Source: Porphyromonas sp. (GTDB taxonomy: Bacteria; Bacteroidota; Bacteroidia; Bacteroidales; Paludibacteraceae). Taken from it: a stretch of 32,370 nucleotides of DNA. A program made the position numbers and the translations under genes. Within the stretch, counting starts at the first letter, position 1. The number at the start of each line of letters is the position of its first letter. The notes beneath the pieces are model-generated. The model did no database searches and was not told where the DNA came from. It was given only the letters and a program-made list of their open reading frames with translations. Of the stretch, positions 14,226 to 22,777 are shown piece by piece. Location: positions 1 through 32,370 of the forward strand of contig DYSC01000011.1 in the NCBI GenBank assembly GCA_020726365.1. The letters run 5' to 3'.

Positions 14226-14996
14226 CTATTCCTCTAATTTCTTCAACAACAATTCCACTCCTTTGTCCACATCCTTAGTTTCCTGAAGCGCTTTGATAAA
14301 AGCCGAACCAATAATTGCGCCCGACGAATAGCGGTTTACCATATCGCGTGTCGATTTATTGGAAATACCGAAACCAATAAGGCGCGGATTTTTCAGATTC
14401 ATGGCATTGATGCGGTTGAAATACTCCACTTTATTATCGAACGAACTCTGCGTGCCTGTAACCGCTGCCGACGAAACCATATAGATAAATCCGTTGGTGT
14501 GGCTGTCAATTTCACGAATGCGGGCTTCGGAAGTTTCGGGTGTAATCAGGAAAATAAATTCCAAACCAAACTCCTCAGCAATTTCTTTGTATTCAGCTAA
14601 AAAATCGGACATAGGCAAGTCAGGAATAATCATTCCATCCACTCCTACCCGACTACATTCTTCACAAAAAGCTTTAAACCCGAATTGCATAATCGGATTC
14701 AGATAACCCATCATAACCAATGGAATGTGAATATGCTCGCGAACATCAGTAAGTTGTTCAAACAGTTTGCGAATGCTCATGCCATTTTGCAATGCCTGCT
14801 GACTGCTATTTTGAATAACGATACCATCAGCCATCGGGTCGGAAAAAGGCACACCAATTTCCACCAAATCCACACCATTTTCATGCAAACACTTCAATGT
14901 AGGCACGGTATCGTCCAATTTTGGAAAACCCGCTGTAAAATAAACCGAAAGGATATTTTCCTTCTTGCGGTCGAATAAAAGATTAATTCTGTTCAT
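14226..14996 (-). CDS. trpA: Tryptophan synthase alpha chain
   Basis: YFTAGFPKLDDT, VDLVEIGVPFSDPMADG, GFGISN motifs. Confidence 0.97.
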   Translation of the reverse strand: MNRINLLFDRKKENILSVYFTAGFPKLDDTVPTLKCLHENGVDLVEIGVPFSDPMADGIVIQNSSQQALQNGMSIRKLFEQLTDVREHIHIPLVMMGYLNPIMQFGFKAFCEECSRVGVDGMIIPDLPMSDFLAEYKEIAEEFGLEFIFLITPETSEARIREIDSHTNGFIYMVSSAAVTGTQSSFDNKVEYFNRINAMNLKNPRLIGFGISNKSTRDMVNRYSSGAIIGSAFIKALQETKDVDKGVELLLKKLEE

Positions 14997-15077
14997 TTTT
15001 TATGTTGACGACAGACTACAGACAACAGTCTACAGTCAATTGTTTTTTCCATTAAATAACGCCTGAAAGGCAAATAA

Positions 15078-15764
15078 CTAGTCCCTTAATTGCTTAAGAA
15101 ACACATGAAGCACCTCCACATTCTTCAACCCCGGACTCACTTCAAATTTACTGTTTAAATCGATTCCGGCAAATTTTGGATGTTCTATTTTCAAAATAGC
15201 CTCTGCATCGTCGGCAGCAATGCCACCACTCAGTATAAATGGCGTTTCACCCCTATATTCATTTAAAATACTCCAATCGAATTTAACGCCTGAGCCACCG
15301 TAAGATTCCGTTTTGGTGTCGAACAAAAAATAATCGCAAGCACCTTCGTAAGTTTTTGTTACTTTAAAATTCGACACATCAGCTATCGGAAATGCCTTTA
15401 AAACTAATAAGCCTGCATCTTTTAATTTGCGACAAATATCAATATTTTCACTGCCGTGAAGTTGCACTCCATCGAGATTATATTTAAAAACAATGGTCAA
15501 AATATTTTCCAACTCCTCATTTACAAATACACCAATTTTTTTAATCGTTTTTGGCAACGAATTTAATGTATCAACATCCAATGGTTCAGTATAACGCTGC
15601 GATTTTGGATAAAAGATAAAACCCATAAAATCAAGCTTTAAATCAGCAATAGCCTGAATATTAGAAGAGTATTTCATACCGCAAATTTTGATAAGCCCCC
15701 TAAATCCCCCCAAAGGGGGACTTGTTAAGTTAGTCCTTTCTATATTATCTTCTTGCATTTCCAT
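15078..15764 (-). CDS. trpF: Phosphoribosylanthranilate isomerase, with N-terminal extension derived from a repeat
   Basis: KICGMKYSSNIQA, DGVQLHG, LSGGI motifs; conserved core begins about 28 aa after the ORF start. Confidence 0.95.
   Translation of the reverse strand: MEMQEDNIERTNLTSPPLGGFRGLIKICGMKYSSNIQAIADLKLDFMGFIFYPKSQRYTEPLDVDTLNSLPKTIKKIGVFVNEELENILTIVFKYNLDGVQLHGSENIDICRKLKDAGLLVLKAFPIADVSNFKVTKTYEGACDYFLFDTKTESYGGSGVKFDWSILNEYRGETPFILSGGIAADDAEAILKIEHPKFAGIDLNSKFEVSPGLKNVEVLHVFLKQLRD
15693..15723. repeat. GC-rich palindromic repeat, copy A (REP-like), in the trpF N-terminal coding region
   Basis: AAGCCCCCTAAATCCCCCCAAAGGGGGACTT. Confidence 0.85.
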
Positions 15765-15783
15765 ATAAAATCTATAAATTGCA

Positions 15784-16584
15784 CTATTTAAAGTCCCCCT
15801 TCGGGGGATTTAGGGGGCTTATAAATCGTTTCAATGCCTCCGCCGGATTTTCCTCTTTCATAAAATTCTCACCCATCAGGAAGCCTCTATAACCCACTTT
15901 GCGAAGCTCTTTTACTGTTTCTACTTTCGAAATGCCGCTTTCGCTCACTTTTACAAACTTATCGGGAATCAATGCCGCCAAATCAAACGAAGTCTGAATA
16001 CTTTGCTCAAAAGTTTTTAGGTTGCGATTATTTACGCCCAACATATCCACATGGTCGTTGGCATGACCGAGTTCTTCGGCGTTATGCACTTCGAGTAATA
16101 CTTCCAAACCAAGTTTATGGGCTTTTTCAGCCAATTCCAATGTTTGTTCCACTGTCAATGCCGCCGCAATCAACAATATAACATCAGCTCCCACTGCTTT
16201 CGCTTCATAAAGTTGATATTCGTCAATCACAAAATCTTTGCGCAACACCGGACAAGTAATAAACTGACGGGCAGCTATCAAATCCATCGGCGTACCGCCA
16301 AAATATTCTTCATCCGTCAAAATAGAAATTCCCGAAGCACCCGCAGCACTGTACCCTGAAGTTACATCCACCACATCAGCATCCTCATTTATCCACCCTA
16401 ACGAAGGCGATTTGCGCTTAAATTCCGAAATGATTCCTGAATCCGAATTCAGCAAACTTTGCTTCATTGATAAGCATTTACGCCCAAAAGCCGGAGTTTT
16501 TTCCAATGCCGAAATAGATGTTGTCAGTTTACGTGAAGCAACTTCTACTTTTTTATTGGCTATTATTTTATCTAAAATTGTCAT
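15784..16584 (-). CDS. trpC: Indole-3-glycerol phosphate synthase, with C-terminal extension derived from a repeat
   Basis: ILDKIIANKKVEV, SEFKRKSPSLGWI, PVLRKDFVIDEYQLYEAKAVGADVILLI, VSESGI. Confidence 0.97.
   Translation of the reverse strand: MTILDKIIANKKVEVASRKLTTSISALEKTPAFGRKCLSMKQSLLNSDSGIISEFKRKSPSLGWINEDADVVDVTSGYSAAGASGISILTDEEYFGGTPMDLIAARQFITCPVLRKDFVIDEYQLYEAKAVGADVILLIAAALTVEQTLELAEKAHKLGLEVLLEVHNAEELGHANDHVDMLGVNNRNLKTFEQSIQTSFDLAALIPDKFVKVSESGISKVETVKELRKVGYRGFLMGENFMKEENPAEALKRFISPLNPPKGDFK
15791..15820. repeat. GC-rich palindromic repeat, copy B, inverted relative to A, in the trpC C-terminal coding region
   Basis: AAGTCCCCCTTCGGGGGATTTAGGGGGCTT. Confidence 0.85.
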
Positions 16585-16834
16585 TACTATATTTTTCTTT
16601 TATATCAGAAACAGGATATAAATCATCTTCATTTTCTAAAAATTGATATGATTTTGACTTGGAAGTAAGTTGTTGAATTCCTTTTTGTAAAATACTCTCT
16701 TCGTGCTTTTCTTGAATTGCCATTCTATCCGTAACTCTGTTCATAGTATATAATTTTATAACTGGTAATAAATATGAGTTGATATAGCCAAATATAATAT
16801 TTATAAGTAGCGGAATCGACAGTATAAATATCAC
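16568..16834 (-). CDS. Small hypothetical protein (88 aa) in the trp operon between trpD and trpC; possibly TM-containing or initiated internally at MNRVTDRM
   Basis: Starts 6 bases past the trpD stop and overlaps the trpC start by 17 nt in another frame. Confidence 0.5.
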   Translation of the reverse strand: MIFILSIPLLINIIFGYINSYLLPVIKLYTMNRVTDRMAIQEKHEESILQKGIQQLTSKSKSYQFLENEDDLYPVSDIKEKYSNDNFR

Positions 16835-16840
16835 TTTCCG

Positions 16841-17836
16841 CTAACTATAAATCTTAATAAACTTCTCAAATGCTTGTTTTGCACTACCACTTTCGAGCGA
16901 TTCTGCTGCTTCGGCCTTGCATAGCTCCAATGGTTTGTAGCCGCTGCGTGTTTGAATAGCAAATGCAGTATTAATAATAACTGCATTGCGTTGTGCTTCG
17001 GTGGCTTTGTTGTCGAGCACATTCATAAATATTTGAGCAGCCTCGTCAACTGTATTTCCTCCCCAAAGTTCTTCTTGTTGAATTTTTTTGAAACCCAATT
17101 GCTCTGGTGTATATACAAATTCACCCATATTGTTCGAAACTTTGCAGGTATCTGTGAGCGAAACCTCATCGTAACCATCCAACGAATGAACAATGCTGTA
17201 TTGTACGCCCAAATTTTGATAAATGTAATTATAAAGGCGCATCATTTTGAGGTTATAAACGCCAAGACACTGATAGTTTGGTTGAGCGGGATTAATAAGC
17301 GGTCCTAAAACGTTGAAAAAAGTACGAACGCCAAGACCTTTTCGCACTGGTGCTACATTTTTCATAGCCGGATTGCAGAATGGAGCATGCAAATATGCAA
17401 AACCCGCATCTTCGAGCGAACGTTTAATTACATTTATATCGGTAGTAAACTTTGCACCAAAATACTCCAACACGTTGGACGAACCACTTACCGAAGTTGC
17501 ACCATAGTTTCCATGTTTCGCCACTTTGTAGCCCGCTCCGGCCACTGCAAAACAGCTACATGTGGAAATATTAAAGGTGTTTTTACCATCGCCACCCGTG
17601 CCCACAATATCGAGCGCATCGTACTCCGACAAGTCCATCGGAATTGCCAATTCGAGTAGCGCATTTCGAAAGCCAATCACCTCGTCGAGTTCAATACTAC
17701 GCATCAGATATACCGAAATAAATGCAGCTATTTGTGCATCGTTATATTTTCCGGCAGCTATGTTTGTCATCACTTCAGTAGCCTCCACGCGGCTTAGCGA
17801 CTGATGATTAAAAAGTTGATTAAGTATTTGTTTCAT
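16841..17836 (-). CDS. trpD: Anthranilate phosphoribosyltransferase
   Basis: DIVGTGGDGKNTFNIST, KHGNYGATSVSGSSNVLE, RTFFNVLGPLINP. Confidence 0.97.
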   Translation of the reverse strand: MKQILNQLFNHQSLSRVEATEVMTNIAAGKYNDAQIAAFISVYLMRSIELDEVIGFRNALLELAIPMDLSEYDALDIVGTGGDGKNTFNISTCSCFAVAGAGYKVAKHGNYGATSVSGSSNVLEYFGAKFTTDINVIKRSLEDAGFAYLHAPFCNPAMKNVAPVRKGLGVRTFFNVLGPLINPAQPNYQCLGVYNLKMMRLYNYIYQNLGVQYSIVHSLDGYDEVSLTDTCKVSNNMGEFVYTPEQLGFKKIQQEELWGGNTVDEAAQIFMNVLDNKATEAQRNAVIINTAFAIQTRSGYKPLELCKAEAAESLESGSAKQAFEKFIKIYS

Positions 17837-17872
17837 AAAACTATAAATATTATTATATCAGCAATATACAAA

Positions 17873-17903
17873 GCGAAAAATATCGCAACGAATATATTCA
17901 CAA
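17873..17903. repeat. Imperfect 31-bp direct repeat, copy 1 (downstream flank of the ATPase gene)
   Basis: GCGAAAAATATCGCAACGAATATATTCACAA; matches 19030-19060 at 26 of 31 positions by eye. Confidence 0.75.
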
Positions 17904-17907
17904 TCAT

Positions 17908-18999
17908 TTATATGTCAATTCTTTTACTAAATAACCATTCTTTGAAAAATGGGTCGTCGAACTCATATTGGCCCGATTTATAAACAATACCAGCTCTCGA
18001 AAGTCGTTTCAAACCACTAAAAACAGTACTGGTTGCTTTTATGTCATTTTTGGTTGCAAATTGCTCTTTCAGCGGATTTTGCGCATCTACCGACAAGCCG
18101 ATTAAAATCTTTTTATCCGTATTATTCATATTATTCCACAAGCGTTCAAAATCATTATCGTGCAATTGAATGGTTTCAATAATTGTTTCGTTTATAATGT
18201 TATCAAAATAAGCATTTCGTTCCAATTTCATCCACACGTGAAAAGCCAATTGCTGTGTATAGTAAGAATGACATTGCGAAAATGCCAATACCTGTTCCGA
18301 AATAAGTTCGTTTTGTTCGGTAACGCTGGCAAAACCGTCCATTAAAAAGTTTTTAAAATCAGGATATGGGATTTTTTTCAACGAAAATAAAACCCCAAAA
18401 TGATAGAATGGAGATTTCTTTTTCTCGAAAATATCTATCATCATCGATTCTACACTTCCCAAAAGCACATAGTTAATATTTTTATGTAACTGAATGGTTG
18501 CACGCAATTTTTTATCTAAGTTTTTATCCAGTTGCATCACTTCCTGAAATTCGTCAAGCACTACAATAATCTTACTATCAGCACCTAAACTTTCAATTAA
18601 ATTCAACACATCTTCCAACTGAACAAAGCTATCTACCGATGGTTGAAAACTAATCTCAACATGGTTTGATTGTGGGTCGATGGTTAAAGTCGGAACAATT
18701 CGAAAATTGCGAACCAAAAACTTTAATTTTTCGAATGGATATTTTTTAAAAACTTGTTTCAATAATTGAGATGCAAAATCGGCTACACCTGTCAACAATT
18801 GCAAATCGAGCCAAAGCACCGGACGCTGTGATGCTGTTACCACTTTATGTACCAAACTGGTTTTACCATAACGGCGAGGAGCAATCATTATCAAATGATT
18901 TTCACTTGCAATTAGTTGGGTTAAACTCGTATATTCGTATCTACGGTCGGTAAAAAAAACGTCGGATACTACCGTGCCAAATTTGAATGGATTGCTCAT
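17908..18999 (-). CDS. AAA/archaeal-type ATPase-like ATP-binding protein
   Basis: Walker A-like APRRYGKTSL, Walker B-like KIIVVLDEFQEV, C-terminal winged-helix-like segment ending QYEFDDPFFKEWL. Confidence 0.85.
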   Translation of the reverse strand: MSNPFKFGTVVSDVFFTDRRYEYTSLTQLIASENHLIMIAPRRYGKTSLVHKVVTASQRPVLWLDLQLLTGVADFASQLLKQVFKKYPFEKLKFLVRNFRIVPTLTIDPQSNHVEISFQPSVDSFVQLEDVLNLIESLGADSKIIVVLDEFQEVMQLDKNLDKKLRATIQLHKNINYVLLGSVESMMIDIFEKKKSPFYHFGVLFSLKKIPYPDFKNFLMDGFASVTEQNELISEQVLAFSQCHSYYTQQLAFHVWMKLERNAYFDNIINETIIETIQLHDNDFERLWNNMNNTDKKILIGLSVDAQNPLKEQFATKNDIKATSTVFSGLKRLSRAGIVYKSGQYEFDDPFFKEWLFSKRIDI

Positions 19000-19029
19000 A
19001 TTATTCTATATTTTAAACAATTACATATT

Positions 19030-19060
19030 GCGATAATTTTCGCAACGAATTTATTCGCAA
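19030..19060. repeat. Imperfect 31-bp direct repeat, copy 2 (upstream flank of the ATPase gene)
   Basis: GCGATAATTTTCGCAACGAATTTATTCGCAA. Confidence 0.75.
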
Positions 19061-19158
19061 ATATACTATTTTGTTTTTCAATTTACAAATATTTAGTGCA
19101 ATTGTCATTAGAATATTGAAAACAAATTTGCTTATTGGCACATTAAATTATTGACACA

Positions 19159-19797
19159 TTAACTCTCCAACCAATTTTTCAACATTTGCTCTCCATTGGG
19201 TGTCAGCACCGATTCGGGATGAAACTGAACTCCACGAACGTCGTAGGTTTTGTGTGCCAAAGCCATAATCATACCTTCTTCGTCGACTGCTGTAATTGTT
19301 AAACACTCTGGCAAAGTTGATTTTTCGGCAGCCCACGAATGGTAGCGCCCCACTTCAATCTTTTTATCTAATCCATTGAAAAGCACATCTTCTTCCAACA
19401 CATCCACCATGGAACTTACACCGTGGTGTACTTCGGAAAGGTTTACTAATGTGCCGCCAAAAGCTTCGGCAATGGCTTGTTCGCCCAAGCAAACACCCAA
19501 AATAGGTTTTGTAGGTGCGAACGTACGTATCACATCCAACAAAATACCCGATTCGGAAGGAACTCCCGGTCCTGGCGAAAGGATAATTTTATCGAAACGA
19601 ACAATTTCTTCTAACGCTATTTGGTCGTTGCGATGTACTTCCACATCGGTGTATCCTAATTTTTTAACAGCATGTACCAAATTGTAGGTAAACGAGTCGT
19701 AATTATCAAAAACTAATATGGAGATGCCTGCCCCCCGACCCCCTAAAGGGGGAGTTGTGTTAGCATCGTTTTGTTTATTTTCTATTATATGTTTCAT
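19159..19797 (-). CDS. trpG: Anthranilate synthase component II (glutamine amidotransferase), with N-terminal repeat-derived extension
   Basis: ILVFDNYDSFTYNLVH, LSPGPGVPSESG, GVCLGEQAIAEAFGG, VQFHPESVLTPNG. Confidence 0.95.
   Translation of the reverse strand: MKHIIENKQNDANTTPPLGGRGAGISILVFDNYDSFTYNLVHAVKKLGYTDVEVHRNDQIALEEIVRFDKIILSPGPGVPSESGILLDVIRTFAPTKPILGVCLGEQAIAEAFGGTLVNLSEVHHGVSSMVDVLEEDVLFNGLDKKIEVGRYHSWAAEKSTLPECLTITAVDEEGMIMALAHKTYDVRGVQFHPESVLTPNGEQMLKNWLES
19727..19756. repeat. GC-rich palindromic repeat, copy C, in the trpG N-terminal coding region
   Basis: CCTGCCCCCCGACCCCCTAAAGGGGGAGTT. Confidence 0.85.
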
Positions 19798-19833
19798 ATC
19801 GGAAAATTTTAATATTCAGTACTAATTTCTCTT

Positions 19834-19862
19834 ATTCCCCCTTTAGGGGGTTAGGGGGCAGG
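19834..19862. repeat. GC-rich palindromic repeat, copy D, inverted relative to C, abutting the trpE stop codon
   Basis: ATTCCCCCTTTAGGGGGTTAGGGGGCAGG. Confidence 0.85.
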
Positions 19863-21269
19863 TTATTTCCCCGCCATTTGTATTGCCCTTTTCAGCGCTG
19901 CTAGTTTGTTATTCACTTCTTGTAATTCACTTTCCTCGTCCGATTTAGCTACAACTCCTGCACCAGCCTGATAGTAAAGCGTATTGTTTTTGCTTACAAA
20001 CGAACGAATGGTTATTGCCTGATTCATACTTCCATCGAAACCGATGTATCCCAAGCAGCCACCATAGGGTCCACGGTCGTGTGGCTCGATGCTATCAATC
20101 AGCTGCATGGCTTTAATTTTAGGAGCTCCTGAAAGTGTGCCTGCCGGAAAAGTATCCGCAAAAAGCTTTATAATTTTCGTATCGGGTTTAAGTTTTCCAC
20201 TTACACTCGACACCAAATGGAGTACGTGTGAATAATACTGTACTTCGCGAAAAACATCTACTTCTACGTGGTCGGTATTGCGACTCAAATCGTTACGCGC
20301 CAAATCGACCAACATCACATGCTCAGCATTTTCTTTTTTGTCGGTACTTAGTTTTTCAGCCAATTCTGCATCTTTTTCGTCGTTGCCTGTGCGGCGGAAT
20401 GTTCCTGCAATAGGTTTGATAAATGCTTTTTGTTTTTTGGCATCTACGACCAAATGCGCTTCGGGCGACGAACCAAAAATACGGAAATCGCCAAAATTGA
20501 AATAAAACAAATAAGGCGAAGGATTTACAGATCGCAAGGTGCGGTACAGCATAAAATCGTCCCCTTTGTATTGTTGGTAAAAACGGCGCGAAAGAACAAT
20601 CTGGAAAACATTTCCTATGAAACATTCTTCTTTGCCACGAGTTACCATTTTTTTGTAATCATCATCGGAAATATCACATTTTTCTTCTCCCACAGCCGAA
20701 AACTCGTAAGTAGCAATATTGTTATTTTCCAAAATTTCTTCTATTTCGCTGATTTTCGAAGTTTCTCCCTCAAGCAAGTTTTCAATAATTGTCAATTCAT
20801 TGTTGAAATGATTCACAGCAATAATGTATTTAAACAACACATAATGCAAACCAGGCATACTTCCGGGAACCGTTTCGCGGGCTGCCAGTTTTACATCCTC
20901 GAAATATTGAACCGATTCGTACGAAGAGTAACCAAATAAACCATTAATGCCCACCGGATTATCATTTTGAATAATGTCTACCGATTTAAGAAAGGCGTCA
21001 AAACGCTCAGCAACCGTCAATTTATTAGTTACCGGAGTTTCAATTTTTGAGCCATCAGGATATTCCTCTTTGATTAGAAAGTGATTAACCGAAATTCCAC
21101 CAATCGGACAAAAACCAATATAGGAGAAACTATTTTCAACTCCATGATAATCAGAACTTTCCAGCAAAACAGAATTAGTATATAAATCCCGTATTTTGAG
21201 ATAAATTCCTACCGGCGTTTGCAAGTCGGCAAGCATGGTTAAACTATTAACTATTAATTTCATAATCAC
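19863..21269 (-). CDS. trpE: Anthranilate synthase component I
   Basis: Chorismate-binding motifs: NVFQIVLSRRF, INP-like VNPSPYLFYF, PIAGTFRR, FPAGTLSGAPKIKAM, YGGCLGYIGFDGSMN. Confidence 0.96.
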   Translation of the reverse strand: MIMKLIVNSLTMLADLQTPVGIYLKIRDLYTNSVLLESSDYHGVENSFSYIGFCPIGGISVNHFLIKEEYPDGSKIETPVTNKLTVAERFDAFLKSVDIIQNDNPVGINGLFGYSSYESVQYFEDVKLAARETVPGSMPGLHYVLFKYIIAVNHFNNELTIIENLLEGETSKISEIEEILENNNIATYEFSAVGEEKCDISDDDYKKMVTRGKEECFIGNVFQIVLSRRFYQQYKGDDFMLYRTLRSVNPSPYLFYFNFGDFRIFGSSPEAHLVVDAKKQKAFIKPIAGTFRRTGNDEKDAELAEKLSTDKKENAEHVMLVDLARNDLSRNTDHVEVDVFREVQYYSHVLHLVSSVSGKLKPDTKIIKLFADTFPAGTLSGAPKIKAMQLIDSIEPHDRGPYGGCLGYIGFDGSMNQAITIRSFVSKNNTLYYQAGAGVVAKSDEESELQEVNNKLAALKRAIQMAGK

Positions 21270-22522
21270 ATATTAAAATGTTTTACATACGTATCCATAT
21301 CTTTATCTCCCCTTCCCGAAACATTAATAACCACAATATCATCGGGTTTGAAAGTCCCTATTTCTTTTTTCAAAAGTGCCATTGCGTGAGCCGATTCGAT
21401 AGCCGGAATAATTCCCTCCAATCGCGTTAATTCAAAAGCAGCCTCCAACGCTTCATCATCGTTTACAGGATAAACTTTTGTACGTCCAATTTTGGCGAAA
21501 TGGGCATGGGCAGGTCCAATGCCCGGATAATCCAATCCGGCAGAAATAGAATAGGGTTCTGTAATTTGACCATCTTCGTCCTGCATTAATAAAGTGCGGA
21601 ATCCATGAATAATTCCTACCGTTCCCACGCTGATGGTTGCAGCCGTTTCGCCAGTTTCAACGCCTAATCCACCAGCTTCAGCGGATATAATTTTTACACG
21701 TTCGTCGTTTAAAAAATGATAATAGGTTCCCATAGCATTACTACCACCACCCACACAAGCCATCAGGTAATCGGGATAACTACGACCTATCTGTTCTTGT
21801 AATTGCCTTTTAATCTCCTCACTGATAACTGATTGAAAAAAAGCAACCATTTCGGGATATGGGCGCGGACCTACTGTTGAGCCAATTATATAAAACGAAT
21901 CTGGGTTTGAACACCAATACCGAATGGCTTCGTTTGTTGCATCTTTCAATGTCCAGTTGCCACTTGTAACCGGTTCAACTGTAGCCCCCAACATACGCAT
22001 TTTTTGTACATTCAAAAATTGACGTTCCACATCTGTTTTTCCCATAAAAACAATACATTCGAGCCCCATCAGCGCACAAGCGGTTGCCGTAGCCACACCA
22101 TGTTGTCCGGCTCCTGTTTCGGCAATAATACGGGTTTTGCCCATGCGTTTTGCCAACAGAATTTGCCCCAGTGCATTATTGATTTTATGTGCGCCTGTAT
22201 GGTTCAAATCTTCACGTTTCAGATAAATTTTCGTGCCGTATTTTTCCGATAAACGGGTTGCAAAATACAGCGGCGAAGGTCTTCCCACATAGTTTTTAAG
22301 CAAATCGTAATATTCGGCTCTGAACGAAGCATCGTCTTTAATAGCGTAAAAAGCTTCTTTCAGTTTTTCAACCGTTCCGTGTAAAATTTCGGGAATATAT
22401 GCTCCGCCAAATTCACCGTAGAAACCCAAATCATTAGGCAATTCAAGCCCAGCCCCACCTAACCTCCCCGAAGGGGAGGAATTTAAGTTAGCATCGTTTT
22501 GTTTATTATTTTTAGTATCCAT
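21266..22522 (-). CDS. trpB: Tryptophan synthase beta chain; start reassigned to the internal MDTKNNKQNDAN ATG because the longer ORF reads through a terminator hairpin
   Basis: YGEFGGAYIPE, LKREDLNHTGAHKINNALGQ, GAGQHGVATA, GGGSNAMG; 1257 nt in frame from 22522. Confidence 0.92.
   Translation of the reverse strand: MDTKNNKQNDANLNSSPSGRLGGAGLELPNDLGFYGEFGGAYIPEILHGTVEKLKEAFYAIKDDASFRAEYYDLLKNYVGRPSPLYFATRLSEKYGTKIYLKREDLNHTGAHKINNALGQILLAKRMGKTRIIAETGAGQHGVATATACALMGLECIVFMGKTDVERQFLNVQKMRMLGATVEPVTSGNWTLKDATNEAIRYWCSNPDSFYIIGSTVGPRPYPEMVAFFQSVISEEIKRQLQEQIGRSYPDYLMACVGGGSNAMGTYYHFLNDERVKIISAEAGGLGVETGETAATISVGTVGIIHGFRTLLMQDEDGQITEPYSISAGLDYPGIGPAHAHFAKIGRTKVYPVNDDEALEAAFELTRLEGIIPAIESAHAMALLKKEIGTFKPDDIVVINVSGRGDKDMDTYVKHFNM
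22448..22486. repeat. GC-rich palindromic repeat, copy E, in the trpB N-terminal coding region
   Basis: CCCAGCCCCACCTAACCTCCCCGAAGGGGAGGAATTTAA. Confidence 0.8.
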
Positions 22523-22549
22523 ATTATTTTTCAATTTCTTATGTTTCTT

Positions 22550-22580
22550 AAGGTGCCCCTTCGGGGGATTTAGGGGGCTA
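22550..22580. repeat. GC-rich palindromic repeat, copy F, inverted relative to E, abutting the attenuator T-tract
   Basis: AAGGTGCCCCTTCGGGGGATTTAGGGGGCTA. Confidence 0.85.
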
Positions 22581-22617
22581 AAAAAAAGGCTTATCGTGAA
22601 TTCCGACAAGCCTTTTT
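22580..22617 (-). terminator. Rho-independent terminator hairpin in the trp leader (attenuator)
   Basis: Minus strand AAGGCTTGTCG-GAATTCA-CGATAAGCCTT, an 11-bp stem with one G-U pair, followed by T8; lies between the leader peptide and trpB. Confidence 0.88.
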
Positions 22618-22657
22618 GTAATATCTTTTTATTCGACAATATACATTGGTGTTACCT

Positions 22658-22681
22658 CTCACGGATTAGCTAATCTGTAAG
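22658..22681 (-). promoter_or_regulatory. trp leader pause/anti-antiterminator hairpin (1:2)
   Basis: Minus strand CTTACAGATT-AGCT-AATCCGTGAG, 9 of 10 positions pair (one A x C mismatch, one G-U). Confidence 0.7.
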
Positions 22682-22722
22682 TGCCACCACCAAAATTTAG
22701 TTACTGTTAAAATTGAATTCAT
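22666..22722 (-). CDS. trpL: Trp operon leader peptide MNSILTVTKFWWWHLQIS
   Basis: ATG AAT TCA ATT TTA ACA GTA ACT AAA TTT TGG TGG TGG CAC TTA CAG ATT AGC TAA; three tandem Trp codons just upstream of hairpins and a terminator before trpB. Confidence 0.88.
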   Translation of the reverse strand: MNSILTVTKFWWWHLQIS

Positions 22723-22746
22723 TTCTTTTTGTTTTGTTTCCGTGTG

Positions 22747-22777
22747 CAAAGATGATAAATTAATTTTATTTATGCAA
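22747..22777 (-). promoter_or_regulatory. Putative Bacteroidetes-type trp promoter (TTG at -33, CATCTTTG near the TAnnTTTG -7 consensus)
   Basis: Minus strand TTG-20 nt-CATCTTTG, about 25 nt upstream of the trpL ATG. Confidence 0.6.

Follow-up and report, generated by a model that had tools for sequence, protein, structure and literature searches.

A Bacteroid-trp leader in a Paludibacter-like Bacteroidota trp operon: a likely ribosome-mediated attenuator with a proposed antiterminator at the terminator loop

A 2010 publication listed the Bacteroid-trp RNA (RF01692) among candidate cis-regulatory RNAs of Bacteroidetes (Weinberg et al. 2010, PMC2864571), and a role for it as a trp-operon leader has been discussed as likely in Flavobacterium psychrophilum (PMC6414381). 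The open-access literature yielded no experimental study of a Bacteroidota trp leader (subscription papers were outside the scope of the search), and leader mechanisms in Bacteroidales seem to have been little tested experimentally. The locus considered here lies in a 32,370-nucleotide stretch of DNA from Porphyromonas sp. (contig DYSC01000011.1), hereafter called the window. An Rfam scan recovers RF01692 on the minus strand at 22605..22742, with the complete model aligned (1-131 of 131) and a score of 61.9 bits against a gathering score of 49 bits. This is the sole Rfam family at gathering score in the whole window; the T-box model gave no match at that level anywhere in it, and matches to Thr_leader, MIR398, and other families score under their respective cut-offs and are explained by the terminator hairpin or the inverted repeat. 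Given the full-model match and the prior publication, the window leader belongs to an already known kind: it is a member of the catalogued Bacteroid-trp family, not a new discovery. The two agree in phylum, gene context, small ORF, and terminator start. However, the Rfam model stops at the terminator 5' arm, whereas the window leader continues through the antiterminator pairing, which the model thus does not contain. We propose this missing antiterminator for the family; the new part is the comparative evidence on self-pairing.

A second yardstick is the E. coli trpL leader, taken from the MG1655 record. As in the window, trpL combines a tandem-Trp leader peptide, a hairpin 1:2, a terminator, and a stop codon that lets the ribosome mask region 2. 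The two differ in the tryptophan run (WW in trpL, WWW in the window), in the first gene of the operon (trpE and trpB, respectively), and in the partner of region 2, which pairs with the terminator 5' arm in E. coli but with the loop and the top of the 3' arm in the window. The first-pass annotation had assigned the enterobacterial 1:2/2:3/3:4 logic to this locus. That analogy holds insofar as hairpin 1:2 and the 2:3 pairing are mutually exclusive, with region 2 common to both; it does not extend to the 5' arm, since the loop and 3' arm are captured instead. Sphingobacteriales-type leaders (Pedobacter, Sphingobacterium; L079-L108) come from the same phylum, likewise carry a WWW peptide and a terminator, and precede trpB in the retrieved loci of about 2 kb. 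Leaders of this type (L079-L112) share the 5'-arm partner of E. coli, whereas Bacteroidales-type leaders do not. Two antiterminator geometries for one operon in one phylum would allow a direct test of how large a portion of a terminator hairpin needs to be blocked for antitermination.

The window leader (22742-22580, minus strand) is located between lptC and trpB, and its T8 run ends 57 nt from the trpB start. All features of the leader and operon lie on the minus strand. trpB (21266..22522, ATG at 22522; TIGR00263, 589 bits) is the first gene of the operon, and its closest named TrpB, at 85% identity, is from a Paludibacter sp. MAG. The rest of the operon, at 14226..21269, consists of trpE, trpG, an AAA ATPase gene, trpD, trpC, trpF, and trpA. 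An earlier reading of this operon as trpBEGDCFA was right about the trp genes and their order but missed the AAA ATPase gene (ATPase_2/AAA_14; 17908..18999) between trpG and trpD.

Bacteroidota-type promoters follow the consensus TTTG / TANNTTTG. Upstream of the leader ORF, as first reported, a promoter-like element CTTG-20 nt-CATCTTTG can be read at 22778-22747 and is presumably of this type; a comparable CTTGCA...CATCTTTGCA is visible by eye upstream of many leaders of the genus, an automatic best-match scan having proved noisy. A scan for consensus sigma-70 promoters returned nothing useful, as expected for Bacteroidota. The 18-codon leader ORF, MNSILTVTKFWWWHLQIS followed by a stop (22722-22666), is present as annotated, with its three consecutive TGG codons at 22692-22684 forming a putative stall site. 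The hairpin noted after these codons is also present, at a gap of 2 nt rather than 4 nt from the last TGG. It comprises region 1 as the proximal arm (CUUACAGAUU, 22672..22681), an AGCT loop, and region 2 as the distal arm (AAUCCGUGAG, 22658..22667), whose 5' end is overlapped by the leader stop codon. The terminator has a 5' arm AAAAAGGCUUGUCG (22604..22617), a GAATTCA loop, a 3' arm CGAUAAGCCUUUUU (22583..22596), and a T8 run (22580..22587). It had been described as an 11-bp GC-rich hairpin plus T8; the hairpin and T8 stand, but the stem is 14 bp long with one G.U and 5 G-C pairs, and with so few of the latter it is not GC-rich. Region 3 (UUCACGAU, 22593..22600), which spans the terminator loop and the top of the 3' arm, can pair with region 2 over 8 bp with one bulged C, exactly as originally claimed. 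The leader as a whole folds at -38 kcal/mol (z -4.1), and none of 200 shuffles was as stable.

These parts suggest, with high confidence on our part, that the Bacteroid-trp leader of this Paludibacter-like Bacteroidota trp operon is a ribosome-mediated transcription attenuator. The locus is best interpreted as a site of ribosome-mediated Trp attenuation, in which the response to Trp, like leader translation, stalling, and the change in read-through, would follow the established biology of attenuation. With ample charged tRNA-Trp, a ribosome would pass the WWW codons, reach the stop codon, and mask region 2, and the terminator would then stop transcription ahead of trpB. Under Trp shortage, a ribosome stalled at WWW would disrupt hairpin 1:2 and release region 2 (UCCGUGAG), which could grab the emerging terminator loop and the top of the 3' arm (UUCACGA); the captured loop would delay the terminator, and RNA polymerase would continue into trpB. 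In an untranslated leader, hairpin 1:2 would fold and termination would follow. Under such a scheme, a leader ribosome in these bacteria has to be near enough to RNA polymerase to have an effect.

The pairings required can be assessed across relatives. In alignment A1, which was built purely from sequence and comprises 61 leaders, the terminator is paired in 98.8% of cells, with two-sided changes at 11 of its 12 pairs, and hairpin 1:2, which likewise shows pair changes, in 84.2% (25-52% when slid). For the antiterminator, in which region 2 (UCGURAG) faces the loop and top of the 3' arm (CUYRCGA), the figure is 92.8%, against 25-43% for slid versions. Two-sided changes occur at four of the eight antiterminator pairs, in 30 cells as compared with 9.9 in shuffles; the clearest is an exchange of G-C for A-U at columns 38:123 (45 and 13 sequences). 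On the TrpB tree, this exchange corresponds to some 4-5 changes, too few for a formal test, and the covariation is thus supportive, not conclusive. An outer stem between the WWW codons and CACC, although present in the Rfam structure and in the minimum-energy fold, was rejected, being paired in 56.7% of cells on A1 while slid versions reach up to 67.5%.

A duplex test, separate from the A1 counts, scored pairs of regions against shuffled regions. Across 68 Bacteroidales-type leaders, region 2 pairs significantly with the loop and top of the 3' arm in 87%. Its pairing with the terminator 5' arm was significant in 3%, no better than chance, and the other region combinations in the same leaders remained at the chance level of 0-6%; candidate antiterminators joining the spacer or leader ORF to the terminator 5' arm, loop, or 3' arm were discarded on these grounds. 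Of the Sphingobacteriales-type leaders, by comparison, 62% of 8 show significant pairing of region 2 with the 5' arm, but not with the loop. The comparative sequence data thus support, as a candidate antiterminator, a helix between region 2 and the terminator loop together with the uppermost part of its 3' arm, and conservation together with covariation would add this pairing to RF01692 as a structural refinement.

Growing transcripts of the window and seven relatives were folded with the ribosome footprint masked. With a ribosome on the Trp codons the antiterminator forms; with one at the stop codon it never does; and without a ribosome it is absent save for one transcript end in a single relative (L042). 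The stop codon falls within the GURAG core of region 2 in 45/65 leaders, a position at which a ribosome finishing translation would cover that region; the window stop codon lies 6 nt upstream of the core, still inside the terminating-ribosome footprint. Once the full terminator has been transcribed, it beats the antiterminator at equilibrium, and switching must therefore be kinetic. E. coli trp gives a milder form of the same outcome in the same folding; there, the antiterminator holds until the 3' arm is complete, whereas that of the window yields earlier. The Bacteroidales design would, on these models, run as a tighter kinetic race than E. coli trpL. On balance we lean toward a Bacteroidales trp attenuator that captures the loop and top of the 3' arm, unlike one that captures the 5' arm, with read-through set by a short kinetic race.

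It is also conceivable, though we think it unlikely, that the leader is a Trp attenuator in which region 2 pairs with the loop as a pseudoknot on a still formed lower stem, and in which read-through comes about through delayed nucleation or pausing. The antiterminator helix is confined to the loop plus the three uppermost pairs of the 14-bp stem, so the lower stem could form simultaneously, and the victory of the terminator at full length is in keeping with such an arrangement. A loosely similar idea exists for the fhsA motif, where a pseudoknot between a terminator stem-loop and the preceding hairpin has been proposed to prevent termination (PMC11109978). However, the prevalence of the region 2-loop pairing in the duplex test and its compensatory changes indicate that this pairing is probably selected, and blocking the loop and closing pairs would by itself slow formation of the terminator hairpin.

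Less probable again is that the leader regulates poorly in this particular genome, with an antiterminator weakened by a C inserted in region 2 and a loop U and a mainly constitutive terminator. The window antiterminator does look weak, given the bulge from the inserted C and a G.U pair: its pairing energy is -7.0 kcal/mol, against about -12 kcal/mol in most leaders, and is the weakest measured in the genus. In partial-transcript folding it reaches 0.78 and is ahead for only three transcript ends, -9 to -7, compared with about 7-12 ends in the seven relatives. However, the inserted C also occurs in several relatives (L006, L008, L010, and L021) whose loops are intact, and the WWW codons, the hairpin, and the terminator are all intact in the window.

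Functional attenuation, the reading we prefer, is also consistent with the distribution of the family. The source genome holds one Bacteroid-trp copy, and leaders were found in 35/48 genomes of the genus, 44/200 sampled from the family, and 33/344 sampled from the order. The window leader has the features of RF01692: trp genes lie downstream in a Bacteroidota genome, and a short ORF with at least two UGG codons is followed by a terminator. A WW or WWW leader ORF is present in all of the first 42 leaders retrieved from genus and family. The alignment of relatives proposed at the outset does show retention of the Trp codons, TGGTGG being nearly invariant in A1, together with compensatory changes of supportive strength; the longest run is three tryptophans in 48/65 leaders and two in the other 17/65. 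trpB lies downstream of nearly all of these first 42 leaders, the exceptions being L037, where another ORF comes next, and L013, which ends too early to tell. In the former (L037:1080-1232), the ORF that takes the place of trpB encodes a 150-aa unknown protein. The lptC end is only 17 nt upstream of the promoter-like element, so an lptC terminator could be expected somewhere nearby, but the notion of a chance TGG-rich ORF beside an ordinary lptC terminator is refuted by the conservation of WW(W), spacing, and a complementary terminator loop across many genera, nearly always before trp genes. These patterns support the view that ribosome-mediated trp attenuation is widespread in Bacteroidales.

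Elsewhere in the operon, inverted pairs of one palindromic repeat occur at 22456-22576, 19731-19858, and 15697-15816. The three pairs, 120-128 bp end to end, span the starts of trpB, trpG, and trpF, and their arms could fold about the start codons. The chance expectation for the repeat is 0.02 matches in the window; the genome contains 73 matches, and none to the reversed pattern. The inner copy at trpB is translated, as NSSPSGRLGGAG, where relatives have NSPLGAGG.

The repeats are related to a family of DUF559 insertions. A 418-bp unit interrupts the isoleucyl-tRNA synthetase gene in frame in the same genome (contig C85, 8531-8948; L190, L221); it has inverted palindromes CCCCTAAATCCCCC..GGGG at its ends and encodes a DUF559 Vsr-like endonuclease domain, and it has relatives at L203-L207, L214, L216, and L218. 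DUF559 is found in 22/25 genomes of the genus, with about 23/57 copies inside open frames 870-1506 aa long, among them ValS, IleS, PurL, and UvrA, and the insertions are edged by repeat-encoded peptides (SPxGDLGG and the like). The units resemble a mobile family of endonuclease elements that insert in frame into essential genes. In two relatives, the trp leader is followed some 1.5 kb further downstream by a DUF559 copy (G039:C461:5174-5491 and G046:C1:8264-8584), and the same element family thus seems to enter trp operons.
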